Shown here in pieces: positions 442-60,599 of a stretch of 64,000 nt of DNA. The stretch lies in the NCBI GenBank assembly GCA_031213475.1, contig JARUPZ010000025.1, forward strand, positions 7,512,656 through 7,576,655, in the 5' to 3' direction. The DNA comes from Nereocystis luetkeana. Its lineage: Eukaryota; Sar; Phaeophyceae; Laminariales; Laminariaceae. A program made the translations under genes and the position numbers. Position 1 is the first letter of the stretch. Each line of letters starts with the position of its first letter. The notes beneath the pieces are model-generated. The model searched no databases, was not told the origin of the DNA, and was given only the letters and a program-made list of their open reading frames with translations.

Positions 442-549
442 GGGGACCATACCTGGTAGTTAATAGGACCAAATATCGTTAGTAAAAATGGTTCAATATA
501 TAGGTTTTTATGTTTTCCATAGGTCCTGTTAACTATGGTCCCCCGTAAT
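442..549. mobile_element. MITE family M, copy 1, carrying a TACCTGGTA insertion
   Basis: A non-autonomous terminal-inverted-repeat element of about 108 bp. The left end reads GGGGACCAT...GTTAATAGGACC and the right end is its inverse, ending CCCCCGTAATA. The outer TATTACG of the left end is missing. ACC flanks both sides (437-440 area and 550-552), a possible 3-bp target duplication. The left arm is interrupted at 450-458 by TACCTGGTA, which other family copies lack. The length of the target duplication would fit PIF/Harbinger- or CACTA-type elements, but the superfamily is unproven. Confidence 0.85.
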
Positions 550-862
550 AACCTGCCGTTATGAGATGTTGTGCAGGGCTTGTCGAACTAACTGTACTAT
601 CTAGCCAACTAATACGTAGTTGAGGACTTATAGTCGGCCAGCTCACTGCCCTAGTGGCCACGGTAGTACGTATGTGTAAGTTGCCAGGTCCATGGTTTTT
701 GCCTGATCGCGGTGTTTTTTGCTTGGTCGGGGGTCAGGGCTCCGTGTTTCCCACAGCTCCAACACTTCGTCGGTTCCCACGTGACAGTCTAGGTATTTTT
801 GAGCCGAGATATCCCTGACGTCTTATGGGTCTCTCCAATTTTGACGTTGCCGAGTGAGAGCC
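550..862. other. No gene recognised
   Basis: Unique-looking sequence between a MITE and a dispersed repeat. I see no coding frame, RNA gene or repeat that I can support. Confidence 0.4.
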
Positions 863-976
863 ATGTGATCGGTATGATGTAAGGCATGTTTCCTGCGTTG
901 GATCTGCACTAATCGTGTCCTGCGCAGCACCTCCAGAGGATCTGGATGATCTATCTGTCGATGGTGATCTGTTTTG
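863..976 (+). repeat. Dispersed GATCT-rich repeat, copy 1
   Basis: A roughly 115-bp block built around 'TTTCCTGCGTTGGATCTGC', a CAGCACCTC-like segment and GATCTGGATGATCTATCTG. Diverged copies occur at 1,545-1,660, 4,415-4,680 and 4,782-5,060. It has no coding character and its element class is unknown. Confidence 0.6.
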
Positions 977-1417
977 AGGTGTGGCTTTTTTCACGGCAGT
1001 GGAGGCTAGTTCAGTTTGGCCCATTTTGGCCCGCGCTTGTGTGTGATCACGGAAAGTGACGGGCGTGATTGCGCGACAGAGGTGGCGGGGCTTCGGGTAC
1101 ATGATTTGCGTCATCACAGCAACCGGCGGTGTGGTGTCGACCTGAGGGCCGAGTGCACCCACAGCAGCAGAGATGGCGAGCTTAGTATACAGTGGTGCTT
1201 ACAGTATGTCTGGTTCATGCTTGGTTCCGTATGGGTGCAAGGTATCTGCCGCCTCCTCGCCCCCCCCACCGCCCCCCCCCCCCCCCCCCTCCCTCCCTCC
1301 CTAAAAACCTCCCACACCTCAGGCAGATCATCAACTAGCGTTTCGTGATCTACGAAGTAGACATTCCGAGACAGAGAATATCCCGGGCTTGTATGATCTA
1401 CCGGAGCTCCTGTTGCC
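977..1417. other. No gene recognised; C-rich tract
   Basis: Contains a C-rich run (about 1,261-1,292) of the type scattered through the window. Open frames on both strands here are short and of low complexity. Confidence 0.4.
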
Positions 1418-1528
1418 CATCACGGGGGACCATAGTTAATAGGACCAAATATTGTCAGTGGAAAGAGCGAAAGATATAGGTTTTTGTGTGTACCGTAGGT
1501 CCTATTTAATATGCCCCCCCCGGAATAG
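1418..1528. mobile_element. MITE family M, copy 2
   Basis: About 110 bp, starting CACGGGGGACCATAG and ending in a diverged inverse with an expanded C run. Interior sequence (ACCAAATATTGTCAGT... ATATAGGTTTTTGTGTG) matches the other family-M copies. No clear target duplication is visible. Confidence 0.85.
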
Positions 1529-1544
1529 TGGGGCCCGTACAACC

Positions 1545-1660
1545 TGCATGATCTACAGCAGTAGCTCGTGTCTCCTGTGTTGGATCTGCCGTACAAGGCA
1601 GATCCTGCACAGCCTCTGGCAGCGGCGGGTATAGATGATCTAGATCATGATCTGCCTGTC
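1545..1660 (+). repeat. Dispersed GATCT-rich repeat, copy 2
   Basis: Diverged copy of the 863-976 repeat: TGTGTTGGATCTGCCGTA, a CACAGCCTC block and several GATCTAGATC motifs. Confidence 0.5.
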
Positions 1661-3680
1661 CGAGGGGGGAAACTAAATATTTCGCCCCTCAGCCCCCCCC
1701 CACCATCCATCCCTGCTCTACCCCATCCCGCCCCTTTGTGTACCCCCTGTCCGTCCCCTGCCCTGCAAAACCTCCCATCCCTAACCCCCTTCCCGTTTCG
1801 GCCACGCGCCCTGGATCGCGAGAAAGGCTCCGGCTGCGAGAACGCCGATGCTCGAAAGCACAAGCCACCTGTGCCGTCCATGCACGATGGCCTGCTTTTT
1901 TCCCGTGAATAAACCTAGTCATTGTCCACGTTTCCCTGTAGTACGCGCCTCCACCGGAAACCCCACTTGCTACGACCACTTCACTGCAGATGGGGGAAAA
2001 CACCAACATATATCTCTCGCCCCCCTTATCCCGCCCACTCTCCGCCTCTTTTTGCTCGGTTGCGTTTGTTTTTTCAGGGGGGGGACTGCGGTTGCGCAAG
2101 CCGGTAACGTCGCTGTGCCCGGCGCGGCGCGCGAACACTTTCCCTCCTCGGGTCCGACAAGCTCTTCTGCTTCTGCCGCAGCAGCTGCGGCGGCGGGGGG
2201 GGGGCGGGGGGGGCTCTCCCCGACAGGCCCGACCGTCCGACTTGGGAAAGAGAAAAACGTCGGATCTTGGACGGGGTTATTGCGCCCTAGACGACGGCGA
2301 TGACGGCGACGGCGTTGGGCGGTCCGGTGGCAACTTCGAAAACGACCGACCTACTATCGGCACCGCAGGAGGCGGCGGAACGGTGACCAATAGGAACGCC
2401 CCCCGCTCGCCGGCGTTCGCGACGAGGCGGGTTTCCGAAGGTGTTGCCTTTGGCGGCACGGGGGCCGCCGGTGGATGCGGCGGCGGCGGCGGCGGCGGCG
2501 GGCGTTAGCGCCACCGTGCAATACGTGCGATAAGACGATAAAGCACCTGGGATAATTTTCCGAGTCGATGTCGCCCAAACCAGGGGGGGGGGGGGGGGCA
2601 TTCGACGAAAATGGGGGGCTTCCCATATAGGTGCATATCTCGGCGTCTGCCCTGTCCCCACGGTCGAAAAAAACAGCTAGGAAATGCGTGCGAGGCCTTA
2701 TCTTGCGTGTTATACGGTATGCGGCGTAGAACAAGTTTTTTTGTTTTGTTGTGGTTTACGGCGTTTGGTTGTACTCTTCCCCATTTTTGAGTGACGAGTT
2801 TGGATGAGGGTCTATGGGCCGTGGAGGTGGCGATGGGGGGGGGGAGCCGGAGGAGGTGTGTGGAAGGGAGGCGCTAGCGCTATTCGGCGTAGCACTAGGT
2901 GCTTGTTTTTGTCGTATATATACCAGGTGGCATGTAGCGGAGGGGGGGGGGGGGTTCGGTCTTGATTTGGCGATTTTTGGATGAGAGTTTGGCGGCATTG
3001 TTGTACCGAGGAGAATTTGCGAAGGCGGTGTAGGCCGGCGTTAAAATACACGTTTCAGAACTGCAAAAAAAACAGATATCCTACACTTTTTTTCCGAGTT
3101 TTTTTTCGTTCTTGAAAACGAGGGTGCATTTAACGGGTTGTGTGTGTGTTTTGCCTTCGCCCTCGTTTGGAGGTCTGCTGACATGGCAGCGTGGCGCTCT
3201 GGCAGGGACAGCAGCTCTCCTAGCACGCGGCGGGCCTGAAAGGGGTAACACACACTGAGTTTCTAGAGTAGTGGTCCCTCTAGAGTGACTGTAGAGTAGT
3301 GCCTGCTGCCCTCTATAGCGCCTGCGAAAATCGCTTGGCACGCACGGAACACTCCATCTGGCCTTTAGTCGGAGTAGCGCGGGGTTGCCGCTACATTTGC
3401 TGAAACGTGTTTTTGGCTGGCGCACACGGGCGCTATGATATGGAGGCCCCACTGCTGTACAGAGGAAGGGGCGTTGGTGTTGAGGCAACGCCTTTTGTTT
3501 TTGTTTTGGGACACGTGCGAGCGACGGTGCGATATTGCCACCATATCTTGAAACACGAGTTTTTTTATTGTGTACTATTGTAAAATATACCTGGTAGTTC
3601 GTTATAGTCTGGGACCGAGTGGTATAACTTGACCGGCGAGAAGGATATAATCGAGAAGGCGGGCTTGGTGACTGGTAAGG
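1661..3680. other. GC-rich low-complexity region, no gene recognised
   Basis: CpG-rich sequence with long C or G tracts (for example about 18 G at 2,581-2,598 and 14 G at 2,941-2,954), GCGGCGGCGG runs and a GCCGCAGCAGC stretch. Overlapping frames are open on both strands because of composition. None has the spacing, motifs or splice context of a gene. TACCTGGTA occurs at 3,588-3,596. Confidence 0.45.
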
Positions 3681-3683
3681 GGG

Positions 3684-3908
3684 GTGACCGCCGCCGCAAC
3701 TGCTGTTGCTGTTTGCCGCTGCTGTTTCTGCTTCTACAGATGTTTCTACTGCTTATTCTGTTGCTGGTTGTTCTTCTGCCTCTGCTCCGCTTCGATTGCT
3801 GCTTTTGCTGCTGATTCTTTCTTCTTCTGCTTGTGCTTCTACTTGTGGTTTACTGCTAGTTCTGCTTGTGCTTCTACCTGTGCTTTACTGCTACTGTAGT
3901 TCTTCTGC

Positions 3909-3970
<62 letters not shown>

Positions 3971-4414: not shown

Positions 4415-5060
4415 GGTATGTATGTGCGTGATCTGAATGGCGCGTGTTTCCTGAGTTGCATCTGCACTACGCATATCTTGCACGGCATCCCAGAATGGCA
4501 GGTTTTGGGATCTAGACGATATGCTGTACGAGTAGATGGTTATCTGTTCTGCCTGTGCAAAACTTTATCCCGATGTGGGCGAAGGGGCGCGGTGTGTGTC
4601 CTTTGGGGACTGGTACGTGGTATTGTAGTGGCGCATGTTCGGTTTGAGTTGTTGGATGAAGCCCTCCACAGTCAGGGACAGACCATCAACCCGGGATTTC
4701 ATGATCCAGATCTTCGGGGGCTGATGACTCCCTGATCTCTATCTGTAGTAGCTCATGTTTACGGTTGTGGGAGCCTAGTTTGTTATCTGTACGATCTGAA
4801 CGGCACGTGGTTCCTGACTTGCATCATCTGTACGACAACTCGTCTTGCGCAGCATCTCAAAGGCGTTGGAATCTATCTGCTCGTGGAGTAGCTACCGTAG
4901 ATGATCGTTGTATATGTGTGATGTCCTCTGCTGTGTGTCCGAAACTTTCTCCCAATGTGGGAGAAGGGACGTGGTGTACCAGGTATGTCCTTTTGGGTGC
5001 TGGTCTGTACCTGGTATTGAATTGGCGTGTGTTTGCGCATTGTGCGTTGTCGGTTACACG
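4415..5060 (+). repeat. Tandem pair of the GATCT-rich dispersed repeat
   Basis: Two units, 4,415-4,680 and 4,782-5,060, align through GATCTGAAYGGCRCGTG, a TTGCATC block, the CAGCATC/CGGCATC block and a CAATGTGGGAGAAGGGACG-like stretch. The second unit contains TACCAGGTA at 4,977-4,985, where the first has only GTGTGTGTCC, and TACCTGGTA at 5,008-5,016. No protein is recognisable. Confidence 0.6.
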
Positions 5061-5159
5061 GTCTTCTGGGAGTGGATGGGGGGGGGGTGACTTTCTGCTG
5101 AGGGGTATTTGATGTTTAAACAGCAGGACTCTTCACGGGCCAGGAACTTTCCAAAACCT

Positions 5160-6027: not shown

Positions 6028-6058
<31 letters not shown>

Positions 6059-6844: not shown

Positions 6845-7130
6845 CCTGTTCACGGGTCGGGTCAAACCTCAAGGGTCAAGTCGGGTCGGGTCGAGTTCTA
6901 GCGGCCCGAAGCGCTGCGTGAGAGTTTGAAAACCTCCCGATCAGACCCGACCCGACTCGACTCGACCCGACCCGACCCGTCCCGACCCGACCCGACCCGA
7001 CCCGACCCGACCCGACCCGACCCGACCCGACCCGACCCGACCCGACCCGACCCGACCCGACCCGACCCGACCCGACCCGACCCGACCCGACCCGACCCGA
7101 CCCGACCCGACCCGGCCCGACCCGACCCGA
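6845..7130. repeat. CCCGA pentanucleotide microsatellite
   Basis: Near-perfect (CCCGA)n runs from about 6,946 to 7,128. A GGGTC-rich block at about 6,852-6,895 sits just before it in inverse orientation. Arginine/proline- or glycine-rich frames across it are artefacts of a pentamer without stops. Confidence 0.9.
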
Positions 7131-7861: not shown

Positions 7862-7970
7862 TATGACGGGGGACCACAGTTAATAGGACCTATGGTATAC
7901 ATAAAGACCTATATATTTAACCATTTCTACCAACAATATTCGGTCCTATTAACTATGGTCCCCCGTAGTA
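7862..7970. mobile_element. MITE family M, copy 3 (reverse orientation)
   Basis: Starts TATGACGGGGGACC and ends GGTCCCCCGTAGTA, with the interior reversed relative to copy 1 (ACATAAAGACCTATATATTT ... CAATATTCGGTCC). About 109 bp, with both ends present. Confidence 0.9.
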
Positions 7971-8818: not shown

Positions 8819-8819
8819 C

Positions 8820-9813: not shown

Positions 9814-11704
9814 TTAACATCAATCAGTACCAGGTAGACTACTAGTCCGGAAGACACAAGGGAGGGATCGATGCCAGGTAGGTGCACTGCCCATCAGGAG
9901 ACATGACCAACAGACGGCCCCTATGCATTAAACAAGCAGCGATCGAGAGAAGACTGCCTCCTTTTGTAGGACATGCCCCGCTTCGCTCATTTATTTCTGC
10001 GAAATTTCTGCGAATTTCGATACGAAATTTAAACCTCGTATTTTAACCGCATGACATGTATGTGCACCAGGACATAAGAGTCTGATTTTCCGTTTCGTTT
10101 CCTTCGGTTTGGTTTGGTTTTCATTTCAAGTTGTGATCGCTCTTCTTGTATATATTTATACTGGTATATATATATATAAACCAGATCGCTGTGTATGTCA
10201 CATCTCTCGGACAAAAAAACATACTGGTGCGTCGGAAGGCAAAGCTTCCTATCTGTCGGTCGGGGCGCATGATAGCAACAACACCGCACAAATATATATA
10301 TACCTGGTATATATATATATATATATATATATATTCACAGACACGTCAAAATATTGAGCGGGGCATGGCCAATAACTCTACCCCACTGGCGTCGTCTTGG
10401 CTGACCCAGCTCGAAATACCAAAAAAAAGGAAAAGTGTAACGTGACGTGGTGACACTGCACAGATTTTCGTTCGATCGGCGGTTTTGCAGCAATTTGGAA
10501 ATATTTTGACTCCAAGCTTGACAACCGCGTCCCTGAGCGTACAGCACACTTGCAGACACCCGAACTTTTGGAATTCGAGTTGATGTCGAGAAAAGCCATG
10601 TCGGATCAATTTCGTTACACAGGTAGATGTTTCTGAACTAAAGCCTATACGAAACCGCCAAAAATCTGTACACTGGGTAACGCCAATTAATTCTCGGTGT
10701 GAACCCTCCTTGAGGCATGGCGAAACGATTGATATCCTCACTATCGCCTCATTCGTTATATGTCAAGACTCACACAGTGTGTTTGTGATTCGCAATACAA
10801 AGTCAACATGTTACGATTAGGGACACGAATTCCCGATTTCCCAGCACATTTTTTCGTTTTTGTATCAGAATTTTTGACACACGTGATTTTTGGAAAAAAA
10901 ATAGTATAGCGATGATGGTGCGTTTTTATAGTTTCATTTTTTTTTATCACTTCGTCTCACAACAACAGCAAAAACATTTATAATAATATCGGGCTAGCTC
11001 ACACAAAAAAAAAAAAAAAAAACGTACTCCCGTAAATATGTTATACCTGGTACGTACTAATCGAATGCACGTGTCAGAAGTTCAGGTTTTGATTCGGAGA
11101 AACCGTCTCGGAAATCCAGTCCAGCCACTATGTTTGCGCCATGCCCGGCCCAGCTTGTATACGGTCCCGCTATATATTGCGATCCTTCGTACCAGTTACC
11201 GGCATGTTGTAAAGATAATATGTACGCCTTACCGTTTTATGGTGACACGTCAAGCCAAATCGGCGAGCACTATAATACTGGAGGTAATGGAGGGTTCGAG
11301 GCTGCTTGCTCCCACTCACTGCGAGTACTCCCAGTATGTCGGGGTTCTGTGCTGTGCTGTGGATATTGTGCTGCGTGTGCTTGACGTCTATCCAACCTGG
11401 ATATATTTCGAGGTCCATACTGAGAATTCTGCATGGCATACTACTAGCAATGCACTTTCTTTGCGGCTGTCAGCTTGTTGTTGTTCTGTATTAAATACAG
11501 AGTAATTGCCAATCGATGTCAGGTACCAGGTACCAGGTATCAGGTGTTCGATACAGCTCATATTCACACCATCTCGGGTTACAGTAAATACTACGCTAGA
11601 GTGTGGAGCGTTCAGGGCACATCACCACAACGATATCCTACTTACACTCATACTTGGTACCAGGTATAATTCTACTGTTAAGTTGTTGTAGTGAAGCATA
11701 CTAA
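9814..11704. other. No gene recognised; AT microsatellites and TACCWGGTA sites
   Basis: TACCAGGTA or TACCTGGTA occurs at 9,828, 10,301, 11,044, 11,524, 11,531 and 11,658. An (AT)n tract lies around 10,300-10,336. TTATACCTGGTAC at 11,041 and its inverse GTACCAGGTATAA at about 11,657 bracket about 630 bp, probably by chance given the motif's palindromy. No coding frame is convincing. Confidence 0.45.
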
Positions 11705-12359: not shown

Positions 12360-13234
12360 GTGAGTTTATGTTCATTCTGCTACTCGCTGCTTGCGAACAG
12401 TTTGTGACACGAAGATCAGCACCCATTATGCACTCTAGATGTAACACATATACTGGTTCCTGGTACCTGGTACCAATCAATCGCTGTTCAGGCCTCTGTG
12501 TGTCGTAGCTGTCCACGTTGCAACCCGCGTGTCGTGCAATGACGCAATTACGCCTTTGCGTTGACGTTCGGCAGCTGCCGGCAGCAGCAACACGACCGGT
12601 ACAATATACGGCAGTTAACAGTAGTGTCGTGATCTAACGATGAAACACTTGACGTACTCGAGTTGGCCAGGTTGCCTCGTACGGGCGACGCTGGGCTGGC
12701 TATTTATTCTGTATCGATACCATTGCCTCTCAAGTCCCCTGTGAAAATGTTATTCTTGAGACCCCTGTGGCATCCGAATTAGTACGTACGTAAAACAATC
12801 TACAAGCGTGATATATCAGCAGTATACAGCTGGTCCAGTAACGAGGGGAGGGCCGCATGAAAATGGATGCACTTTGAGCGTTCAGTTTTTTTTTGTAGAT
12901 TTCGACATGATATAGTCGGTGTGTGTACACCTCATTGCATACAACAACCAACGCAATTCCAGGGTGCCCCTTAGAAAAACCCTTGTGGCTGATGGGTTAA
13001 GGCGGCTTGGTCAAATATCCAGCAGTGTTTTGGCCGAAATACTGACAACATAGGAAACCTTGTATGTAAAGGTGCAAACAAAAAGGTGCTTCAGATCACT
13101 TCTTGAAATAAAAAATCCACCCGACATAATTTCGGGCTTCCCGATGCCTGATTTTTTAGGTGCCACCTCGAGCCATATCATATAGTATCAGTGCACAGAA
13201 TGGTTATGTGTATTGTCCTGTTGGCCCGGGCAGC
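12360..13234. other. Start of the long intron 1 of gene A
   Basis: Inferred intron sequence with the donor GTGAGT at 12,360. TACCTGGTA occurs at 12,464-12,472. I see no other exon or RNA gene. Confidence 0.45.
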
Positions 13235-13950: not shown

Positions 13951-14736
13951 AAAATATATACCAGGTACCTTGTATATATAAAAGTATGCCAACAAAACAA
14001 ATGGATGCCAAAACCAGATTTCTGGGTCTCTCTCATCGTTTTAGGCGCCTCATATATACCTGGGTGGTATAGCGTATCTCAGCGTTTTGTCGATTTTTTT
14101 GTGCGCGCCATACCTCTTGATATAAACAACATACTATATAGGCTATCATATATGGCGGTGGAGATGTCGATCGTTTCGACACTCGTACTTCGTCGAGGCG
14201 TGTTCACCTTTTACAAGTGCGAGCCTGAGCGTCGTCCGCACCACGAAGGTTTCGGACTTTCGTACAACTACAGTATCTCGACTTTAAGATCGATACTTTC
14301 AGTAAGTGACAGGATAAATTCGGCATGAACTTTCTCGACGAAAAACGAATATTATTCCACAACATCGAACGTCTCTGTAAGCTGTTGACGGGCTATTGAA
14401 TAGAACACTTCAAAACAAAAGTGTGCTTGTTGTGCTGTAACTCCCCAAAAATATTAACCATATGTTCGTTTTCGAGACCTCGAAGTATTTGTGATGACGT
14501 TTAAACTTTACATCTCTCGGGGGCGGTTTGTAATCTTAGTGACAACTAACTCTGAACGACCCCATATTATGACCGATAGTTCTGGGAGAGGTACGAGCCG
14601 CAATTACTGTGGGGACGAACACAGCTGGGGGGGATGATCCTCGGGCATCAATACGGCGCCAAAAGGAAGGGCTTTGGCATAGAATCAACCAAGTCAGTCC
14701 GAGATAAGCGTAAAACGAGAGATTTGTCAGGCTTGC

Positions 14737-14965
14737 TATTACGGGGGACCATATACCAGGTAGTAAATAGGACCTGTGGTACGGACAAAAACCTAGATAT
14801 TCGCCTATTCCTACTAACTATTACGGGGGACCATATTAAATAGGACCAAATATTATTAGTAAAAATAGCGAAATATATAGGTGTTTCTTTGCACCGTAGG
14901 TCCTATTTACTATGGTGCCCCGTAATAACAATATTTGGTCCTACTTACTCTGGTCCCCCGTAATA
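14737..14965. mobile_element. MITE family M, outer copy, split by a second M copy
   Basis: The left arm begins TATTACGGGGGACC at 14,737 and the right arm ends GGTCCCCCGTAATA at 14,965. The interior is in reverse orientation and is split by a complete second copy at 14,819-14,927. The left arm also has TACCAGGTA at 14,754-14,762, with sequence otherwise equal to ACCATAGTAAATAGGACC. Confidence 0.85.
14819..14927. mobile_element. MITE family M, inner (nested) copy
   Basis: Starts TATTACGGGGGACC and ends GGTGCCCCGTAATA. The interrupted outer copy would read CTACTAACAATATTT; here CTACTAAC lies left and TAACAATATTT right. This gives a target duplication of 3-4 bp (TAAC or AAC). Confidence 0.85.
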
Positions 14966-15009: not shown

Positions 15010-15484
15010 TGTTTTTTTCCTTGGTTCTTTGTCTTACTCTGTTTACAAGCAGTGGTGGTGTTTCTGTTATTTTTTTTCTTTTTTCCAGCTCCTTCTTTTT
15101 CAAGTGTTGGCCACCTCGCCTGCGGGGGGGGGGGGCACGACAGATTGTTTCTCCTAGTTTTTGCTTTCATTTTGTCTTCTCTTTATCCTTCTTTCTTTCG
15201 ATTTGTCTACGAGTACTTTGTTTCCGTTTTCTCTTTGATTGTTTCTTTTCGTTTCCCTATTTCATAGATTGTGTATGTCGTGCCTGTCGTATCTAGTACG
15301 ATGACATGGCATTGCATTGCCCACTGCAGTGCTTACTGCATACGTGGCAACGTAGGATCTCTGTGGCGTAGCTTTGTGACCACATAACTTGTATGTCTTC
15401 TAGGATTGAAGAATCGGCACGGACACTGGTTGTGCTGGATGTCGACGGGTAGAAAGAACGGTTTAATGTGAACAACACACACAA
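15010..15484 (+). mobile_element. 5'-truncated LINE, 3'-UTR fragment 2
   Basis: Starts within the 3' UTR (TTTTTCCTTGGTTCTTTG) and carries the same G-tract, GATTGTTTCTC and terminal GATTGAAGAATCGGCACGG block, ending in a short ACACACAC tail at about 15,483. In place of the minus-strand copy's TACCAGGTA (35,723) it has the empty site GCATACGTGGCAACG. Confidence 0.85.
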
Positions 15485-16649: not shown

Positions 16650-17460
16650 TACAATGTGCGCACCCTGGCTGTGAAGGGGAAGAACGGGTACGGACATGAC
16701 GAGCGTGTACTGGCGAAGGGACGGCAACTCGGCTGTGACTTCATTGGCCTGCGATAAACTCGTGCGGCAGCACGACGTTCCGTGCGGCAGGGTATCGTGT
16801 TTTCTGTTCAGGACAGGAAACAACAGCCACCAGGCAAGGGCTGTACGGAGTAGGCCTAGCTGTCAAGGAATCGTTGTGCAATAAGTCTGTGTATACTCAT
16901 CAGTTCGTTGACGAGCGGCTAATGTCTACCTGGTATGCGCTTTGAGCTGGCTGGCAAATGCGAGGCAGTCAATTTCGTCGTTGCGTATGCTCCAACTGAT
17001 TGTACCAACGAACTGAAACGTATTTTCTGGCAGAAGCTGGAGTACTTGGTGGAAAAAATCCCGACGAAAGAGTGTCTGTTTGTACTGATGCATGCCAACG
17101 CGCGAACTGGACAGAGGAAAGAAGGGTGCGGTGATGAAAGCAGAGTGTTTTGAGCGTATGGACGTGATGTTCGTAACGATATTGGCAGACGGCTCCTTCC
17201 TGTCGTTCGCCACCAATGGCAAGTTAGCTCTCACCAACACGTTTTTCAGCACGCGCAAGGCTTGGATATCGCATACTCACAACGGCACCAGCCCGAATGA
17301 CCGTAAGCGGATCGACTACATCCTAACCCGTCAAGTCCATCGACCTAGAGTACTAGATGCGAAAGTCGTCCCACAGCCTCCTGCTCCAGTTAAGGCTGAC
17401 TCAGACCACAACATCTTGGATATCGAAGTCCGACTCGGTGGTGATTTTGCGCCCAACAGA
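16650..17460 (+). pseudogene. LINE AP-endonuclease (EEP) domain, inactivated
   Basis: Readable blocks: IYNVRTL (motif I Asn), LGCDFIGLR where the family has GLQET (here a TAA replaces the catalytic Glu, about 16,755), VNFVVAYAPTD, LFVLMHANARTGQ where D-x-N is expected and His replaces Asp, RKRIDYIL, and ADSDHNILDIEV with the C-terminal SDH motif. These are the signatures of AP-endonuclease domains that nick target DNA in LINEs. Several frame changes lie between blocks. With motif II Glu and the DxN Asp both lost, it cannot work as written. Confidence 0.85.
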
Positions 17461-18321: not shown

Positions 18322-19603
18322 CTGCAACAACTACAGAGGGATTTCGCTTGTTGCCCACGCAGGCAAAGTGTTGTTGAAAATCGTCGCGTCCCGCCTCAGC
18401 AACTACTGCGAGACCGATGAACTACTCCCCGAGGAACAGTGCGGCTTCCGCCCCGCACGATCAACGATTGATATGTTGCTCGTCGTGCGCCGGCTGCAAG
18501 AGCTCGGACCACAGAGGAGAATTCCCTTATACGTGTGCTTCATCGATCTGCAGAAAGCGTACGACTCTGTCGACCGAAAGCTGTTATGGAAGGTACTCAC
18601 ACGCTTTGGCGTACCAACCAAGATGCTGAGGATTATCCGTAATTTCCACGATGGCATGCGGGCTCGCGTGCGTACTGATGACGGCGATCTCTCGGAATGG
18701 TTTGATGTCACGCAGGGGCTGCGGCGAGGCTGTGTACTATCACCGTTACTGTTCAACGTGTTCTTCGCTGCTGCGTTACACGTCGTATTAGTACGCTTCA
18801 GCCAAGACGAAGCCATTGTAAGGGATTTGGCCCAACTCAGTGAAGCTGGAGTAGTTCCAACAGGGAAGGAGGAGCCATTGTCGTGCGTGCGGAGGTCTGT
18901 GGGCAAGTTGTACGCCGATGATGCAGGAATTGTCTCGAAGTGGGCTGAAGGGCTCGCGAAAATGATGACAGTCATCGTGACTGTCTTTGAAGCAGCAGGC
19001 CTCACGGTGTCGGAAAGGAAGTCAGAGACAAAGGTCCTACAAACACCAGACCAGACAACCCTCGCACCACCGCTCGTCATCGAAGCGGCAGGCCAGAGGT
19101 ATAGGCAGACGACCCAGTTCTTATACCTAGGCGGCGTTATCCACGAAAACGCTTCGCTCTCGCTCAAAATCGACCGACGGATCCGCCTCATGCGAGCATG
19201 CCTCAAACGGTTCGGCCCGGAGTTGTATCATAGGACGACCGCCCCCCTTAGCCTTAAAGTCCGAATGCTGAAGGCCGAGGTGATTAAGACCCTGCTGTAC
19301 GGGTGTGTGACGTGGACCCTCAGAGCGGAACACTTTGCCAAGCTTCGAACGGCTCACCACCAAGTCCTGTTGCGAGTCATTGGCTTCCAGCGCCGACTTC
19401 GTACTGACCATGCCACCCTTTCGTACGCGAAGGCCCTCAAGATGACACGTTGCGAGAGCATCGAAACGACCATTCGTGAACGGCGGCTCCTCTTTGCGGG
19501 GGGCGTGGCACGGCAAAGCAAGGAGCGATTACCCAGTCGGGTAATGTGCGGGACGATAGCTGGTGGGGAGAACCCGAGACCAGGCGGATGGTGTAAGACT
19601 TGA
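18263..19603 (+). pseudogene. LINE reverse transcriptase and C-terminal region
   Basis: RT motifs appear in order: [52 protein letters not shown] (catalytic Asp of motif A), [16 protein letters not shown] (motif B), LYADDAGIV (motif C, YADD) and FLYLGGVI. The C-terminal part has [15 protein letters not shown] and GGENPRPGG. This block alone retains an intact RT active site. It ends at a stop at 19,601; the minus-strand copy at 36.5 kb reads on with NTWHKCIVENLREFRATEG, so the stop follows a frame change. Confidence 0.9.
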
Positions 19604-21653: not shown

Positions 21654-21739
21654 ATTACGCAGCTTGCAAAATTGAAAATTGAGTGTATCAACTACCAGGT
21701 ATAGGATTAATAACCAGTCGAACTCACAGACTGAAGACA

Positions 21740-26364: not shown

Positions 26365-26650
26365 CTCTAAGCAGGAGTCGCGGACAGCCGAAAATGACTC
26401 ACGAGGTGTTTTTGTGTACTCGAAGTTGCGGGCGAATGAAAAAAAAAATGCCATTCTCGCTATTACGGGGGACCATAGTTAATAGGACCAAATTTTGTTA
26501 GTATAAATGGTTAAATATATAGGTTTTTATGTGTACGACAGGTCCTATTAACTATGGTCCCCCGTAATAGATTACTTTCATGCCCGGGAGCATAGTATGA
26601 TGGCTACATCACAGATGGAGAAATGCCCTTCGGTAAAGGGTTAGTATTTT
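26365..26650 (+). repeat. Conserved block shared with 55,470-55,640
   Basis: GACTCACGAGGTGTTTTTGT, CTCGAAGTTGC and GGGAGCAT ... ACAGATGGAGA match 55.5 kb in order. Family-M copy 26,461-26,570 is inserted inside this copy. Both give a peptide like SRGVFVYSKL, but no full protein is visible. It could be an old duplicated gene piece or a dispersed repeat. Confidence 0.55.
26461..26570. mobile_element. MITE family M, complete copy 5
   Basis: The cleanest copy, 110 bp: TATTACGGGGGACCATAG at the left, its inverse CTATGGTCCCCCGTAATA at the right, with the standard interior. It has no TACCWGGTA insertion, so it serves as a reference for the empty state of copy 1. Confidence 0.95.
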
Positions 26651-35576: not shown

Positions 35577-37830
35577 GTATGTATGTGTGTTCTTCACATT
35601 AAACCGTTCCTTCTACCCGTCGAAACCCAGCACAACCAGTGTCTGTGCCGATTCTTCAATCCCAGAAGGGCTACAAGCTCGGTGCTCAAAAATCTAGGCC
35701 ACAGAGATGATACGTTGCCACGTACCTGGTATGCAGTAAGTACAGCAATAGGCAATGCAATGCCATGCCATCATACTGGATACGACAGGCACGACATACA
35801 CATTCTATGAAATTGAGAAACGAAAGGACACAAAGAAGACAAATCGAAAGAGAAATATATATATTTGGAAGAAACTAAGTGTCGTGTCCCCCCCCCCCCC
35901 CCGCAGGCGATGCGGCAAACACTTTAAAAATGAGCTGGGAAAATAGGGAAAAAGGAGGGAAACACCATTACTTCTTAACAGAGTAGGACAAAGAACCAAG
36001 GGAAAATAACAAAGGGGAAATAACAGGCAAACCAGAGCACAAAGCACCCTCCAGATAGCGGCAGCAGTTTGTCGTACGAGTTAGCAAAAGCCAGATTCTC
36101 CCTGCTAGTCCGCCTGTTACCTTCCTATCCTGACTGCCGTCTCCGCCCTGCGTTCGTCCACTGTGCCCAGCCCCTTGCGTCAGACAATATGAAACAAGCA
36201 GAGCAAGCTCGTCATCCACCCACGACACACGACTTCTTCAATACGGCTCGTCAATAGCAAAAAAAGGAGGAGATAACAAAAAATGAAAATCACGGGGAAT
36301 CAGCGTAATAAAGAAAAAAAACAAAGAGAAGAAGAGAAGACAGATGAAGGCCACGTTCGAACCTGCTGCACCAGTTGATGGCACTACTAGTAGTATAGTC
36401 ATGTTCTACTTCCTAGTCGGCCTTGTGCTTTGCTACCCTGTTTGCCATCTCCTTCCTGATTTTGTCCACCGCAGGTCCCCTTTTACTCCTCCTGTTCCCC
36501 CCCCTCTCCGCATTCTCTTGGTCAGAGTTTCTGCCACTCATTCTGTATCCCCCCCCCCCCCCCCATTCCCTTGGACACCATCCACGGCGGATAGGTGGCG
36601 CTGCCTACTCATCTCAGCCTTTACTTCGTGCAATCTCACCACGAACCGTTTGGCTGCTTCACGGATCCCCCAGAACCACTTCCCCGCCTTTTTCGCTTTA
36701 GTGGGCCACAGCGCGGCCTCAACTCCAAACAACAATGGGGCGAGTTCCGTTGACCCTTCTGTGGCTCGGAACTCCCTAAGGTTTTCGACTATGCATTTAT
36801 GCCAAGTATTTAACTGCCCACCTGGTCTCGGGTTCTCCCCACCAGCCATCGTCCCGAACATAACCCATCTGGGTAATCGCTCCTTGCTCTGCCGTGCCAC
36901 GACCCCCGCAACGAAGAGCTGCCGTTTACGAACGGTCGTTTTGATGCTCTCGCAACGTGTCATCTTGAGGGTCTTTGCGTAGGAGGGGGTGACATAGTCA
37001 GTACGAAGTCGGCGCTGGAAGCCAATGTATCGCAACAGGACTTGGTGGAGAGCCGTTCGAAGCTTGGCAAAGGGTTCCGCTCTGAGTGTCCACGTCACAC
37101 ACCCGTACAGCAGGGTGTCGATCACCTCGGCTTCGGCTTTCGGACTTCCAGGCTAAATGGGGCGGTCGTCCTATCATGCAACTCCGGGCCGAACCGTTTG
37201 AGGCATGCTCGCATGAGACCGATCCGTCGGTCGATTTCGAGCGAGAGGTCGGCGTTTTCGTGAAGAACGTCACCTAGGTATAAGAACTGGGCCGTGTGCT
37301 TATACCTCTGGCCTGCTGCTTCGATGACGAGCGGTGGTGCGAGGGTTGTCTGGTCTGGTGTTTGTAGAAGCACTGTCTCTGTTGTCTTTTCTAAAACCGT
37401 GATGTTTGTTGCTTCGAAGACAGTCACGATGACTATCATCATTTTCGCGAGCTCCTCAGCCGACTTCTAGACGATTTCTGCGTCATCGAATCGGCGTACA
37501 AGACGCCCCACACAGCCCTTCGCACGCACGCCGACAGGTCCTGCGTCTTTACTCCAGCATCACTGAGTTGGACCAAACCCCCTACGATGGCCCCGTCTTA
37601 GCAAAAATACTAGTACGATGTGTACCGCAGCTGAACATAGTACGTTGAACAGTAACGGTGATAGTACACAGCCTTGCCGCAGCCCCTGCGTGACATCAAA
37701 CCCTTTCGAGTGCTCGCTGTCATCAGTACGCACGCGAGCTCGCATGCCATCGTGGGCATTCCGGAAGTTGTTGTCAGCATCTTGGTTTGTATGCCATGTG
37801 GCTTGGACTTGCAGTGTATCCTGTGCAGAG
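35577..37830 (-). mobile_element. 5'-truncated LINE copy with complete 3' end
   Basis: Reading from the high coordinate, it starts inside the RT ([28 protein letters not shown]), continues through the C-terminal region ([34 protein letters not shown]), the 3' UTR with G-tract (about 35,889-35,902 as C) and the terminal GATTGAAGAATCGGCACAG block, and ends at a CA-rich tail near 35,577. The RT is interrupted around 37,440-37,560 and the YADD block is degraded. TACCTGGTA at 35,723-35,731 is absent from the equivalent place at 15,340. Confidence 0.9.
36538..37125 (-). pseudogene. LINE C-terminal frame of the minus-strand copy
   Basis: 195 codons without a stop: [99 protein letters not shown], ending after SAVDGVQGNGGGGG. 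It shows how the plus-strand copy should read across 19,590-19,680. The frame ends over a homopolymer. Confidence 0.85.
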
Positions 37831-38660
37831 AGCCAGAGCTGTGGGTTCACGGAAAATTATCAGCTACACACCGAGGTTTTCTCATGCACGGACGTTTCTT
37901 ACCTTCTCGCGTGGAGAAGTACAGGTTGCCTTCAAAGTCAAAACGGCCGCGAGAGCAGAGCAGGTAAGAGTGGGTGCGTCGGCGAGTGACCGAACGATAC
38001 ATCACGTGCACGTTACTCACGAAAGAGACACACGTAACTCACAAAAAGAGATACAGAAGGGTGGCGCGCAGCTGGGACCCTTCGAATTCCTCTTGGAACA
38101 GGTACGCACGGAAGTTGCGGTTGCGTGCGTGACGAGTTGGTCGGACGCGGAGACTCAACACATATTATCGAACACTTGCTCGGGCTACTGTAGCGATCAA
38201 TGGATCAGTCGTATGTCGTGCATCAAGTAATCGACAGGTACTACCATATGCCATGGGTATTTATTTCGGTTTTGTCGCAGTGCATAGGTACAGAGATCAT
38301 CTGCCTACCAGACCAGGCCACGGTAATACGTACCAGGTACAACAGTAGTGCCAGAGCGTAGGGTGATGCCCAACGAACGGACCACTCAATAGTCGCTACT
38401 ATGGTTGTTCTTCGACGAGAAAGCAGGCACGGCCCGTAAGAAACAGCCGTCATGTTTCGCTTTGACCGATAACTACACAAGACGGCGCACCAACGTGAAC
38501 TAAGTGGGTACGGTGGTTTTCGGTTGTTTCGTTGCAGGAGAGTCGAGTACGGGAGGTCATATCGATGATATCTGAGTACGCTGAGCATATTATCCTGAAA
38601 ACACAGCAAGGTCAAACGATAACACTACTGTAGGAGGCACGCCGAGAACGGGGTAAATAA
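37831..38660. other. No gene recognised
   Basis: TACCAGGTA at 38,331-38,339. No repeat or coding frame that I can support. Confidence 0.4.
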
Positions 38661-40776: not shown

Positions 40777-42045
40777 ATGCCAGGTTTTGAGGGCAGTGGT
40801 TCAAGGGGGACCAACGTCGCGGGAGTCGATTCAGGAGGAAGCGGTTCAGCGGGAGGTGCTTTTCTGGATGTCGCTTCAGGGGACATCCAATCACTGGGTA
40901 CCGGTCCAGCAACGGGCATCCTGGGCCAGCACGTGTGGTCGAGGGCATCGGAACGTCGTCGGGTGGTACTCGCGGCAACGGAAGCGCAGACCGCCGACAT
41001 CGCGCAACTGAAAGACACGGTCTCCCAGTTGGGCGCCATGATGATGGAAATGAGAGATGTCGTCGCCGAACTACAGGCCGGGGACCACGAGGAGGATGAA
41101 AACGGCGAAGACGCAGGGACGGGCGAGTCTATCTTACGGGGGCAGGAACCCAAGGTCAAGGTGAAGGAAGACATCGTGGCCTGGGAAAACCCGAGCGCTC
41201 GGAAAATTTGGCTTATTTCGGGCGTACGGCCGGTGGTTTGGGGGATGAAACGGGAGGAGCTGCAAGCCGTATTGTCTGACGTAGCACTGGTGACACCCGC
41301 GGTTACCTCCCAGGTCGCGCAGTGTTCGGCCTTCAATGTATCGGACTACCTGGTACATGCCACACGGAAACCCCGTGGATCCCTCGGCAGATCTGAACGT
41401 CTTGGAGCAGATGGAAATGCTCGTCGACGTGGTTATAAGAGTGGTCGGAAAGGGTGCCGAATCGGCGGAGAGCATGGCGCGCGTGGAGGCCCTACGCCAG
41501 GGTGTCAAGATCGGCGCTGACGCTGTGAAAAAACACAAGCAACAATGCACCAAGGTCGATTCGGATTCCGTCGAACAGGAAGCGCATCGAGAAGCTCATC
41601 AACGAAGATATTTTGGTATGGACATCCGCTCTGTTAGACGCATCCGTGTCGGCCGGCGGAAAGTGTACTTCACCACCAAGCATCGAGCAGCTTCCCTCTG
41701 TACCGGTCCCGACTTGGAAGTCGCTTCTTGGCTACATCAACGCGGGAGGGATCAAGAATGTGGAGACTCAACGTGACGGGGGTCAAGGTCGATCTCCCGC
41801 ACCATCGGCCAAGCGAGCAAAGACGCGGGCCGAGTTGCCGTGTTATGGGTGGGCGTCACCGCGGGGGTGTGACTACGGCACAGCGTGCATGTTTGCCCAC
41901 GCAGCAAGCAAAAAATGGCGCGGGGGTAGCGGCGATGGAAGAAGTTCCGCGCGCAAAACCAAGGCAGACCGCGCCAAGACGGGGAGAGGAGGAGGTTTCA
42001 TCCCGACCGCGGAGACACGGGTCGACGGATCTCCACATGCCTAAG
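40777..42045 (+). pseudogene. Gag-like region with CCCH zinc-finger (fossil)
   Basis: The early part is Gly/Ser-rich, then has a heptad-like stretch (QTADIAQLKDTVSQLGAMMM) and a globular-looking block. Near 41,850-41,905 it carries a C-x8-C-x5-C-x3-H finger (CYGWASPRGC ... CMFAH) followed by a basic tail, a possible nucleic-acid-binding module in place of the usual CCHC knuckle. Part of a broken element. Confidence 0.55.
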
Positions 42046-47613: not shown

Positions 47614-48299
47614 AACCCAGCAGCGTCCACCAAATAACTTATGATAGTATTAATAGTGGCCAACACCTGTGGCCCGCCTCTCTCACGCCGTCCTCTTGTC
47701 GAACTGCAATAATACCGGGATCCCGTAAGGCGATGTAGTAGGTTCATTCCGCTATACACCTCGCTTACTACGAAACAGTTTCGGAAGGTGGGCGTGAGGG
47801 AGTATTCCCATCGCCATGCTGTGCTTGAGAAAAACACAAAAGTCTGTTACCGGTAATACTACTGCTGTTTTCGCGCATGATTTCACTTCGTGTGTTCGCC
47901 TTCGCGATTGGCCTATTTTCAGGCGGGAATAATCACGTTTGTTCTTAACCGAACTTTGTTCTATACCAGGTACCAGGTATTTTTCAAGGGGTTCGGGGTC
48001 TTCTGAGGTCTCCACAGCACCTTTGTTTGAGCAAGAACCTCCTTGACTTGAAAGTTGTTGCGAGAACAACCACACTTCGTCGAATACGTCGTCTATTATT
48101 GTTCAATAAGAAGGTTGGCGAGAGTTGACAGCAGTAGTCACACCCAGGCTGTCGAGCTGCACGCCCCGCTGCAACAGCAGTAGGAACTCTCTTCACTAAG
48201 TTAACTTCGTCGCGTTTGTTGTTTCGACAAGTCGACAAGGGAAAGGACAAGAAAAAGTCTACGAGGCTCGTTCATCATATCCTATTCTACGCGTCCACC
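47614..48299 (+). other. Upstream region of gene B
   Basis: Probable promoter and 5' UTR of gene B. Two overlapping TACCAGGTA units lie at 47,964-47,979. The last ~20 bases (CCTATTCTACGC) match those before the gene A start codon. No TATA box or other signal is clear. Confidence 0.4.
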
Positions 48300-49466: not shown

Positions 49467-50106
49467 CCAAGCTAGAGTCCTCCTTTTAGGGCCTCAGTGC
49501 AGTTTAGGGTCCAAACTACATACCATACCTGGTATATTTTTGGAGAGTTTTATCTCTATAGGATTGTTTGGATCGCAGTCGTCCCGCCAGGGACAAAGTA
49601 CTCCCTATCGGGTACTGCCTACGGGGTCAGGCAACCATCATGTATGTGGGAACTGATGTGGTTCACCTTACTGCTGGATTGAAAGTACGAGTGTGTATGG
49701 ATGTATTGTACGCAGACGAGATGCGAGACACAACATGAACTCCGTCCCAAATACAAACCAAGTGTCCCATGAAGAGTCCATTCCAAACGAGTGTTAATTG
49801 TTTTAATTTTTGGTGTAAAGAGAGGTACAGCAGCAGCAGTGCAAGCTTTTGTGGTAAAAAAATAATGTTTGTATTCTGGTGCGGCCAAATGGCTACTGCT
49901 GTAAAAGGCGGCGGGTTGTCTTTATTTCTTTCATTTTATTTCCATTATTTTGATATTGTACTGATTACTTCGCCGTCACAGCAAGCAGTGAGTGGCCGGA
50001 CCTTGCTTACATCGTCTCTCTTTTTTCCTCCTACCTGGTACTATTTTCTCTCCTCCTATCGCTATGAATATTGTGCCAAGTAGCCCGCGCGCTTCCGTCC
50101 CCCCAA

Positions 50107-51239: not shown

Positions 51240-51800
51240 CGAGTACCTGGTGGCGGGTACCCGTAACCGTCGGAATCGGAGCCGTCCCGGCCCAACTGAC
51301 GGAACCGCGGGTATTTGTATCCCGGGTACCCGTTAATTGTTCTATACGGAGGCCCCAAGACGGGGGTATACGTTGATTTACACCCCAGCGGCTGTGCCTC
51401 TAGACTCTCGCCTCTCACCCCTGCAGACAATAGACCGAGAATGGAGAATACCCCTATTATTACCTGTGCCTTGCCTAGCACGCCGCCGCTCCAAAGCTGC
51501 AAGGGGAGCAAATAGGGTATGGTAACCTGGGTACCCGTGTCCGACTTACCAAGCCGCCGCTCAAACGCAAAAAAAGGAGCAAATAGCGTATATGGTAACC
51601 CGGGTACTCGGGTACCCCGGGTACCCAGATACCCGTGTCCGCCTCATCCGTCGGCGTTCAAACGATGAAAGGGAGGAAAATAGGGTATATGGTAATGCGG
51701 GTACCCGGGTACCCGCGTCTGCCGGGACCCAGGTACTCGGTTCCGGTTCCGCCTTAACCGCCCCCCACCCGGTCGGGTACCCGGTTCCAAGTTTTGAGGC
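51240..51800. repeat. GGGTACCC-rich diverged tandem repeat
   Basis: Units of about 100 bp carry TATGGTAACCCGGGTACYCG, GATACCCGTGTCCG, CCGCCGCTCAAACG and AGGAGCAAATAGSGTATATG. Clearest between 51,480 and 51,720, with an inverse-like first part near 51,245-51,330. Dense KpnI/SmaI-type palindromes. No gene. Confidence 0.65.
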
Positions 51801-52612
51801 CGGGATGCACCTCTAGAAGGCTGCGAGCTGCCAAAGTCAGTGTTGGATACCGGCTTCAAAAATCGTCCGGTCGGTATTTTTCAAAATACCGTTGATTCTA
51901 AAGTCGTAGACAAATGCCGTACTCTATTTCTAAGGCTCCCAGTGAACAGCAAATTCCTTTGAGATTCTGCCGATCCATGAAATGAAGAAACTACTGTACC
52001 AGAAAGTAGACAAACAATACAACATTACCTATTGAGATTCTCGTCGACGCCATTGTGGAAGTCGCTTCCTCAGATGATGCCGGCCTTGTTCTACATGTCC
52101 GCCTAAATTATTGCCGTGTTCGTTTCTTTCGAGCTCATCGCAGAATCCTACCAGGTATTTGGTATTGGTCATATTTTGTTTCCCATCGAATCGGTCAGTC
52201 ATTTAGTTGAGGAATCTATTTCAAGGATTCCAACATAAAATGCCCGTTTAGAAAACCAAGGGATACGTCCTACAGCCGTTAACACTTTGGGTCACCTTGA
52301 TTTTAAATGGGACTGGTTACACCTACAACCCAAAGCCTGGCCACTGCGCACGCACGGCGGGCGTAGTTACGGCGGTTATTCACCCATCCACAACTTCACT
52401 CCCGTTCTCGATACGTTAAGTACATACATATGATCGTCGACTGTGCACGTCTCCTCGATTAAGTCTGTGTTCTTCTCGATCACGGACTGCCCCGGAAGTA
52501 TCCTAACTGAAACACTTCCCTGGGTCTAATCGTTCGTAATGTAACCTTGTTTCGCTCCCCCCCCCCCATTATCCCCTGTTACGTTTCACATACGCACTCC
52601 GTTTGCCCCCCC

Positions 52613-57957: not shown

Positions 57958-58143
57958 TCATCCACCGGGATCGAAAAAAATATATAATGTGTAGTCGTCC
58001 GGATCCTGGCTGGGCTCCATCTTCTTGTTGACCAGATTTTCATAGCGTACCCGTCTAGCTTCTTTCGGTGTAAGAAAGAAAGGTGTATTCATAGTATACA
58101 AACTCGAGTCTGTTTCGGGCGACTGAAACATTACACCCCCCAA
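57958..58143 (-). pseudogene. Possible Copia-type gag fragment (fossil)
   Basis: About 61 minus-strand codons with RRVRYENLVNKKM and SQDPDDYTLYIFF. The QDPDD-Y/F signature recalls Copia-type gag proteins. Too short for a firm call. If correct, it is a small broken fragment. Confidence 0.3.
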
Positions 58144-58149
58144 TTGGAG

Positions 58150-58640
58150 TCGGGCTGCTGCAATTACGGAACCGAGCTGCGTTGGGCCGCTGAGAAGATC
58201 GCGTTGAACTGCTGGGTGTGTACCAGTGCAAGCGCTACAATCACGCGCCTGAGTCGGAGTCGAGCGGCTATGATCACGGCACCGAGCTGTATTGTCGGGC
58301 CGCTGGAAAATTCACGCTGTTCAGCGGTGTGTAGCAGTGCCAAACTCACGCGCTTGAGTCGGAGTCGAGCGGTTGTGATCACGGCGCCGAGCTGTATCGC
58401 CGGACCGCTGGAACAGTCACGCTGTTCTGCGGTGTGTTGCGGGGCCAACGCTACAATAATTAATTGCGTGTCTGGGTCGGAGTCGAGCGGATATGATCAC
58501 GGCACCTAGCTGTATCATCGGGCCGCTGGAAAGATCGCGTTGAACTGCTGTGAATACCAGTGCCAGCGCTGAAATAAAGCACCCGAGTCGGAGTAGAACC
58601 GCTGGATTCACGGCACCGAACTGTGAGGTCGGAACTCTGG
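58150..58640. repeat. Tandem repeat of about 105-118 bp, 4-5 units
   Basis: Each unit has GAGTCGGAGTCGAGCGG, TATGATCACGGCACCGAGC, CGGGCCGCTGGAAA and GTTGAACTGCTG/CTGTTCTGCGGTGTG. GAGTCGG starts near 58,251, 58,356, 58,474 and 58,585. Both strands stay open over much of it, so the ~95-120-codon frames are not evidence of a gene. Confidence 0.8.
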
Positions 58641-58671
58641 AAGGCATGTTGAAGTGTTGTGGGTGTACTCC

Positions 58672-59010
58672 TCAGCCGCTGCTCCCGCTCCAGGCCGACC
58701 AAAGGTCGTGCTTGTTAGTTGAGACGGCGAAGATGAAGCGACTACTCGAAGCGTTGACAAGTAGAATAGGGAGTTCAAAGCGGTAGTTCCTGGACATGTA
58801 GTCGCTGAATCCAGCAGACGCCGCCAGAGATGGCTCGTTATAGAGCACATAAGAATATTCCATTTTGCGATGTAATCCTGTAGCTCCCCCAGAGCAGTGC
58901 TCTAGAGCGAAACGAGTCTCATAACCCGTTGAGAATGTTATGAATACGCACTCAGAGGGGGGTGACCGAAGGTGGTCTTCAGAGGCTAGCGCAGAGCTTT
59001 TGCTGGACAA
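58672..59010 (-). CDS. Hypothetical protein, weak candidate
   Basis: A 112-codon minus-strand frame with balanced composition (ECVFITFSTGYETRFALEHC, MEYSYVLYNEPSLAAS, YRFELPILLVNASSSRFIFA). No known motif. It could be an exon or chance. There is no second copy in the window to test it. Confidence 0.25.
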   Translation of the reverse strand: MSSKSSALASEDHLRSPPSECVFITFSTGYETRFALEHCSGGATGLHRKMEYSYVLYNEPSLAASAGFSDYMSRNYRFELPILLVNASSSRFIFAVSTNKHDLWSAWSGSSG

Positions 59011-59371
59011 GCTCCGGCATCACTGATGATGTAACAGATAGATGCATGTTGAGTAAAACGTGGCGCTCGATGGGCTGACAGTTTAAGGAAGGGTGATCTA
59101 TAACATGTTCAGATGCGGTTGACAAGAGAGGAGGTGGGGGTGTTGTTGCAAACACGCCACTACCTCATTCTCACTGTCCTCGTACAGCAACGTCTATCGA
59201 CGGCTTGTCGCTCGAACTCGTCGACCACAAGAACTGCTGATAGGTCTTCTTAGTGTCCCGTTTCTTAGAGTAAAGGGTCAAACATTTGAACCGCACCTTT
59301 TATGAACATCAACTAACTTACGAGGGATCGACACAATAAGCTACCAGGGTATGTATTTACTGCCTGTTTCT
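59011..59371. other. No gene recognised
   Basis: Left flank of the inverted duplication. No feature that I can support. Confidence 0.35.
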
Positions 59372-60599
59372 CAACAGAACCAAGGAGAACAAAAAACGCA
59401 ACTTCCAAAGAGGACAACACCCATTTCCCCGGGAAGGGAGTCATACACCATCCAATATCAAGAAAGTTGGGATTTGTCAATCATCCCCACAATGTCATGA
59501 ACGTTTTCAGCCAATAGGAATTGAATCGCTCAATCCACTTCTTACCCCTTTGCTTCAAGGAAACGTCCACACATGCATTTCCGTATACCACGATGGTTAC
59601 CTCTCGATTGCCGAAGACACACTTATCGAATGGAGAATACGAAATGCAAGCGACTGCTTCCCATATCGGGTTACGACTGGCTGCTCCATCGAAGAGACCC
59701 TGGTGTTAGAGGTGTCCTATAGATTGGGTAGGCAACCGAGCATCCTTTCATCAGTCGCCAAACAGACTGAGACATGAAGACTTTTAGTAACAATGCGTTC
59801 GGGAGTGGAGGTCCTGTATACTCGAGTGCCACATATCAGAGTTGGTACAGGCCCGTTACAGCCTGTACGGGACAAACCATGAATGACAGATATTTGAGGT
59901 ACCCTACACCAGGTACCAGGTATTGTAATGTTTTCCCCTTATCGCCGGGTTCCTTGAAAGGTTCCACAAACTGCAGAACATGAAATAATACTATTGTTGT
60001 TCTTGTGCTAGGATACAACTTGCGTGGTATGAACTTAAGCCCACTTACAAAAATGGGTCCGCGAAATCTCCCGCTCGAAGTATGATATCACGCAACGCCG
60101 GACTATTATTATGAGGTAACGTATCGATGACCTTGGCGCAAGTTACCTTTAGACCCAAACAAACCAACAGGTGAAATGACCTTTCATCCATCATCAGTGA
60201 GAAGTTTCAATTTCTCCTCAAATTGAATGGGGAAATATACGCCCAAAACCTCAGCCATCGTCACAAGGTTCAAATTCTGGGCGAACCCATTGTCATCAGG
60301 TGTGCGAAGAGCAGGTAATGCCCGGGTTGACTGAGCCGGAGCGTGTCGGTACACTCCGTGCAGCATTTTCATACAACAGCAACGGTTTCCGTGTGCCGGC
60401 TCTCTCCTGTTGACTCTGTCTATCTGGTAGTACGTACATATATGCCTTGGCATATGTTACCCCCTTCCCCCTGGAGCACGTGCAAGGACTGCTTCGATTC
60501 ACCAAAACGAAGACGAGCGCCATACACGGACCATCCACAGGGTCGCAAAGACCTGTCGTCTCCCTCTGATTGTTCCTGTTAGCTACATTGATTTCGAAA

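Follow-up and report, generated by a model that had tools for sequence, protein, structure and literature searches.

A 64,000-nucleotide stretch of contig JARUPZ010000025.1 of the bull kelp Nereocystis luetkeana (hereafter the window) carries 24 exact copies of the palindrome TACCWGGTA, where W is A or T. We consider it likely that these units are excision footprints of a TA-targeting cut-and-paste DNA transposon with CCAGG or CCTGG ends. Excision footprints themselves are of a known kind; what is new here is the five-base form and the density of one scar per 2.7 kb of the window without a visible element.

Occurrence of the TACCWGGTA units

All 24 coordinates listed in an earlier inspection of the letters of this stretch (the sequence-only reading) are exact matches, and our scan of the window returned no further ones. 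The 24 sites make up 22 loci, including two pairs, 11524/11531 and 47964/47971, that do share a TA as had been described. The excess over chance is real, with somewhat different figures from the earlier estimate of about 50-fold over 0.5: 100 dinucleotide shuffles gave an expectation of 0.31 copies (sd 0.56, maximum 2), which corresponds to a ~77-fold excess. The center of the unit is A or T in every copy (13 A, 11 T), and TACCSGGTA, TACCCGGTA, and TACCGGGTA have no copies at all in the window.

The excess is specific to the complete 9-mer, since 24 of the 33 TACCWGG words in the window extend to TACCWGGTA. When the spacing in TACC-N(k)-GGTA was varied from k = 0 to 60, k = 1 gave 24 occurrences versus ~1 expected, and the runners-up, k = 2 and k = 8, gave six each. 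Among TA-N5-TA words in the window, CCAGG/CCTGG accounts for 24 and the second, CGTAC/GTACG, for six. In the window plus the kelp-like pieces described below, the 11 other palindromic permutations of the TACC half reach 0 to 4 exact copies versus 30 for the unit. Clustering of the sites along the window is not significant (p = 0.37). Searches of the open-access literature found neither the TACCWGGTA 9-mers as whole words nor a title describing such a carpet of scars.

The units are inserts at TA

We compared paralogous copies obtained by self-alignment of the repeats in the window. Site 450 reads CCATACCTGGTAGTTAA, while its sister copy reads CCATAGTTAA with a plain TA, a difference of exactly +7 with the TA duplicated; the same exact +7 and TA duplication separate site 35723 (CACGTACCTGGTATGC) from its sister repeat copy (CACGTATGC), and a third copy of this repeat reads CACGTACGTGTGC. 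The sites are therefore inserts at TA and not a conserved motif, because TA-CCWGG-TA at the site corresponds to a plain TA in the sister copies, a net gain of 7 bp. When paralogous copies with 70% identity or more were compared, leaving out tandem arrays, 54 distinct indels of at least 3 bp were counted in the window; seven of these measure 7-9 bp, and three of the seven are the TACCWGGTA unit. The scar at 59914 is probably older than the duplication of the 1.9-kb repeat in which it lies, as TACCAGGCA occupies the corresponding position in the 85%-identical partner.

A functional palindromic site under selection, for example for a DNA-binding protein, would also yield a short exact palindrome far beyond chance. 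However, the units are absent from sister copies by exactly 7 bp at a TA, they occupy different TAs of one family of miniature inverted-repeat transposable elements (MITEs), and the enrichment takes in both flanking TAs, together with a TA-centered target bias. We regard this explanation as highly improbable because of the empty sites.

Recurrence in kelp-like ends of bacterial contigs

The MITE family, ~110 bp long, with TTACGGGGGACC ends and probably flanked by TA, has copies at about 1419, 7861, 14736, 14818, 26460, 33937, 49354, and 450, and it occurs also in kelp-like ends of contigs from bacterial metagenome-assembled genomes (MAGs). Its core matches two contigs of the prokaryote collection, both of them bacterial MAG contigs named g3_MAG_..., and these names fit the naming scheme of a bull kelp microbiome study, passages of which name g4_MAG_00004, mention Flavimaricola and Phycisphaera, and put kelp host DNA at 39.0-49.8% of the whole-tissue assemblies (PMC9238374). 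Seven public contigs of these MAGs (JALZVY and JALZWD; L028, L029, L030, L032, L033, L042, and L056 in our numbering) have one end that is apparently eukaryotic, and their G+C and open-frame profiles indicate that these reference-genome contigs are chimeras with non-bacterial ends. These ends are probably kelp DNA, given that their MITE copies, in full-length matches, are 81-85% identical to one of the copies in the window. Samples of 398 and 392 genomes, spread evenly over the phyla to which the two MAGs belong, contained no further genome with the MITE.

The two MAGs together (~5.4 Mb) contain seven distinct TACCWGGTA sites, six of which are located in the kelp-like ends (L028: 2762, 2824, and 3589; L029: 6980 and 7807; L030: 9810), and the remaining one in L031, where open frame makes up 97% of the contig. 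We delimited the kelp-like pieces by eye on the G+C and open-frame profiles; they total 13.7 kb and contain six units. L032, L033, L042, and L056 are without an exact unit, and the unit density in these pieces is a biased estimate because they were found via repeats or motif matches. The excess seen in the window recurs in this other, kelp-like DNA. At L028:2762, the unit occupies a different TA of the same MITE family, reading TTAATACCAGGTAGGACC versus TTAATAGGACC in the sisters, a clean +7. Duplication of the TA target on insertion, as in Tc1/mariner elements, was thus found at 450, 35723, and L028:2762. Neither the triple unit nor the MITE core had a match in viral contigs, and the double unit occurred there in nine stretches with two or three units each, including the double itself, which amounts to no general excess.

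The description of the contexts as unrelated in the sequence-only reading is mostly right, with the exceptions of 450 and 14754, which share a TA within one MITE family, and of 59914, whose repeat has a partner. These three sites are what speaks for a longer repeat family that simply contains the motif. However, the comparison of paralogues showed that no one such family accounts for all of the sites: 16 of the 24 have no paralogous match spanning the unit in the window, and the flanks have in common a weak target bias only, with no common flanking sequence seen. The same units in a separate metagenome assembly speak against an assembly artefact, and either origin seems to us barely credible.

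Target preference and possible decay

Empty sites were rebuilt at 28 loci (56 ends) and compared with the TAs of the same DNA over 12 positions. The base just outside the TA is never A (0 versus 11.3 expected; chi-square p = 9.4e-4), the sixth base outside favors T and avoids G (p = 2.9e-6), and the seventh favors A and avoids C (p = 1.6e-5). After pruning of nine loci with adjoining unit-like sequence, a TA tract, or a doubtful comparison, the 19 remaining loci keep the bias (p = 0.0081, 2.1e-4, and 8.1e-4). Their target score was 100 versus 67.9 (sd 5.0, maximum 87 in 100,000 draws), an overstated effect, as the score was picked from the same data, and in this respect a point to be set against the footprint interpretation. 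Such a symmetrical preference around the TA is the trace expected of an integrating enzyme. TACCGGTA (four copies) and TACCNNGGTA (six copies) were considered as variant footprints and rejected: they are few, and at least two of the four TACCGGTA copies have an A beside the TA, which the units avoid.

Sequence resembling the unit also adjoins the units themselves. Five-mers within one mismatch of CCWGG adjoin seven of the 44 free unit ends versus 3.1% of TA-adjacent 5-mers elsewhere; the CCACG beside 35723 is present in its empty sister copy as well, which leaves six of the seven as candidates. Old scars may have been hit again, or may be expanding. One-mismatch copies of the unit number 20 versus ~9.2 expected, with five of the 20 inside one pair of repeats, near 32 and 60 kb, and this excess suggests decayed scars with, at face value, very roughly 5% divergence per site.

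Excision footprints as the favored interpretation

In the mechanism that we favor, insertion of the element would duplicate the TA, and excision would leave behind, at the donor site, single-stranded overhangs formed by the outermost five bases of its ends. The CCWGG overhangs would anneal through four G-C pairs flanking a central mismatch, A·A or T·T, and mismatch repair to A-T or T-A would give TA-CC-W-GG-TA with a net gain of 7 bp; CCAGG overhangs pairing around A·A would thus yield TACCAGGTA or TACCTGGTA. Such overhang pairing would account for the palindrome, the A/T-only center, the occurrence of both centers, and the uniform product. A 3-nt CCA overhang with a one-base overlap is a possible origin too, but it should produce more variants. 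The footprints of a TA-targeting element proposed in the sequence-only reading gain support from the plain TA in sister copies, the clean +7, the TA on both sides, the center restricted to A or T, the target preference, and the adjoining unit-like sequence. The step from there to a complete element, the family of its enzyme, an overhang of 5 nt, and a route of repair is our inference. That the units work like a Tc1/mariner footprint is well supported; membership of their source in the Tc1/mariner family is unproven because the source element and its transposase were not found.

Several further points weigh against excision footprints. The 64-kb window yielded no TA-flanked element of the predicted kind, with CCA or CCT ends, and a Pfam scan of 26 of the 180 listed open reading frames (ORFs) of the window gave no transposase, its sole match passing the cut-off being a reverse transcriptase. 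Site 14754 uses the same MITE TA as 450 with +9 rather than +7; the diverged paralogue of 4977 lacks the unit and carries TG instead of TA; the paralogue of 5008 carries TACGTGGTA; the 60%-identical paralogue of 52149 has neither unit nor clean gap; L028:2824, at a third MITE position, does not align cleanly; and the absence of any spanning paralogue in the window for 16 sites, noted above, counts here too. Near-variants of the unit are few in the window, and real excision footprints usually vary. Finally, the core of five bases departs from the usual Tc1/mariner footprint length of two or three bases given in PMC3464196.

The search for a source used a TA-flanked inverted-repeat scan of the window (exact first five bases, at least 15 of 20 matching, 60-8000 bp), which returned MITEs and an inverted duplication of a long interspersed nuclear element (LINE). 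Five inverted pairs starting with CC were rejected as the source, one consisting of two units themselves and four lying within the inverted LINE duplication. Twenty stretches of the two MAGs that hold a TACCWGG gave no such element either.

A full-size element that is not seen in the window, a very uniform product, and units in tandem would also suit a tiny CCWGGTA insertion at TA, either self-spreading, as the sequence-only reading had put forward as its alternative, or copied by some enzyme, with no full-size element ever there. However, TA duplication and a palindromic target preference are traces of the integration of a larger element, and we know of no mechanism that lets 5-7 bases encode, or be recognized as, a mobile unit; we judge this origin unlikely. 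Scars without a visible element could likewise result from programmed developmental excision of TA-bounded elements, in a germline programme or otherwise, so that the sequenced DNA shows scars only, and in Paramecium tens of thousands of elements bounded by TA, with ends like those of Tc1/mariner, are excised (PMC3464196). According to the same source, however, this excision is precise, with one TA remaining, whereas the units keep CCWGG and a second TA. The scar at 59914 is common to its partner as TACCAGGCA and hence inherited, and the one-mismatch copies exceed expectation, even with a quarter of them in one repeat pair. Somatic programmed excision is disfavored because at least one scar is inherited, and programmed excision as a whole appears very unlikely.

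Having preferred excision footprints, we suggest only tentatively, as a conjecture with less than even chances, that kelp genomes preserve an archive of scars along their whole length, with roughly one scar every 2-3 kb, made by a transposase with an unusual 5-nt self-complementary stagger, and that the elements leave so efficiently, by constant hopping or germline developmental excision, that scars far outnumber elements. Should the pattern extend over the whole genome, every 9-bp unit would stand for a single past jump, and the history of a transposon could be counted after its loss. The uniform TACCWGGTA would be a sign of a transposase that cuts with a 5-nt stagger, versus the usual 2 or 3. 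Since a 7-bp insert shifts the reading frame, the process could have a bearing on how brown algal genes evolve.

Sites and other features of the window

Table 1. TACCWGGTA units of the window and the empty sites used for comparison
Feature	Position	Strand	Remark
Unit TACCTGGTA in MITE	450..458	.	Clean +7 versus sister copy with plain TA at 7954-7955
Empty site, plain TA, sister MITE copy of site 450	7954..7955	-	
Unit TACCTGGTA	3588..3596	.	
Unit TACCAGGTA	4977..4985	.	Diverged paralogue near 4590 without unit, TG instead of TA
Unit TACCTGGTA	5008..5016	.	Paralogue near 4614 reads TACGTGGTA
Unit TACCAGGTA	9828..9836	.	
Unit TACCTGGTA, within TA tract	10301..10309	.	
Unit TACCTGGTA	11044..11052	.	
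Double unit TACCAGGTACCAGGTA, one TA in common (sites 11524, 11531)	11524..11539	.	TCAGG on both flanks
Unit TACCAGGTA	11658..11666	.	One-mismatch unit TACTTGGTA just before, at 11651
Unit TACCTGGTA	12464..12472	.	One-mismatch unit TTCCTGGTA just before, at 12457
Unit TACCAGGTA	13959..13967	.	Followed by one-mismatch unit TACCTTGTA at 13966
Unit TACCAGGTA, MITE TA identical to that of site 450	14754..14762	.	+9 (extra TA) versus copy with plain TA at 26553-26554
Empty site, plain TA, sister MITE copy of site 14754	26553..26554	-	
Unit TACCTGGTA	16927..16935	.	
Unit TACCAGGTA	21693..21701	.	
Unit TACCTGGTA, dispersed repeat	35723..35731	.	Clean +7 versus copy with plain TA at 15341-15342; third copy near 13611: TACGTG
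Empty site, plain TA, sister repeat copy of site 35723	15341..15342	-	
Unit TACCAGGTA	38331..38339	.	
Unit TACCTGGTA	41347..41355	.	
Double unit TACCAGGTACCAGGTA, one TA in common (sites 47964, 47971)	47964..47979	.	
Unit TACCTGGTA	49526..49534	.	
Unit TACCTGGTA	50032..50040	.	
Unit TACCAGGTA, then TTTGGTA	52149..52157	.	60%-identical paralogue near 28.8 kb: no unit, no clean gap
Unit TACCAGGTA, 1.9-kb repeat	59914..59922	.	85%-identical partner (31319-33203): TACCAGGCA in same position

Two other palindromes are present in the window. TACWGTA is raised about threefold (16 versus 4.85 expected; for example at 3892, 22702, 38186, and 54389), with a G outside the TA at 20 of 38 ends in the window and the kelp-like pieces, unlike the flank bias of TACCWGGTA; shaped like the footprints of the Sleeping Beauty transposon, it may be a second, 3-nt scar family. 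Eight of the ten GGGTACCC palindromes lie within 51255-51775, a local repeat unlike the dispersed TACCWGGTA.

The inverted LINE duplication extends from 19424 to 21530, with arms near 95% identical, and adjoins a LINE reverse transcriptase (RVT_1). Searches with LINE reverse transcriptase found no relatives in viral contigs or phages and one distant match (28%) among plasmids, and neither of the two MAGs contained the LINE protein. Both strands of a tandem array of 30/57/114 bp at 62475-63726 have open frames of 218 to 387 aa, and a CCCGA pentamer array of 39 copies lies at 6936-7130. Scans of the window for tRNAs (bacterial code) and against Rfam gave no match; the window also lacks three telomere repeats and the spliced-leader relic word TTGGCTCAAG of dinoflagellates, and it contains another 10-base leader word once.

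Comparison with known systems

Tc1/mariner-type elements leave terminal bases at the donor site, one strand being cut inside the element (PMC8151067, PMC7827188), and the consensus footprints of Sleeping Beauty are TACAGTA and TACTGTA (PMC4378557). In our view, the pairing of CAG overhangs about a central A·A would explain them. Like the TACCWGGTA units, these footprints have a TA on both sides and a self-complementary core with an A/T center, and are attributed to excision overhangs (PMC4378557, PMC7827188, PMC8151067). In contrast, their core has three bases instead of five, and the transposon is known there, whereas here no element with matching termini was identified; the core has the self-complementary form with an A/T center in all 24 units.

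The TA-targeting superfamily is common in brown algae; Ectocarpus has 17 TcMar families with almost 12,000 copies, according to a transposon survey in whose main text the words "footprint" and "excision" do not occur (PMC12477816). The likeness to the units lies in the targeting of TA. In ciliates, the TA-bounded excision of internal eliminated sequences resembles the units in taking place at very many sites, and differs in its precision, as described above (PMC3464196). Compared with these, the Stowaway MITEs of Triticeae also left TA-flanked scars of terminal bases, and the later insertion at the same TA is a precedent for the re-use of a scarred TA, but their footprints are heterogeneous fragments of 1-4 bp in one gene intron, as that report describes them (PMC1925063), whereas here a uniform product stands at 22 loci in 64 kb.

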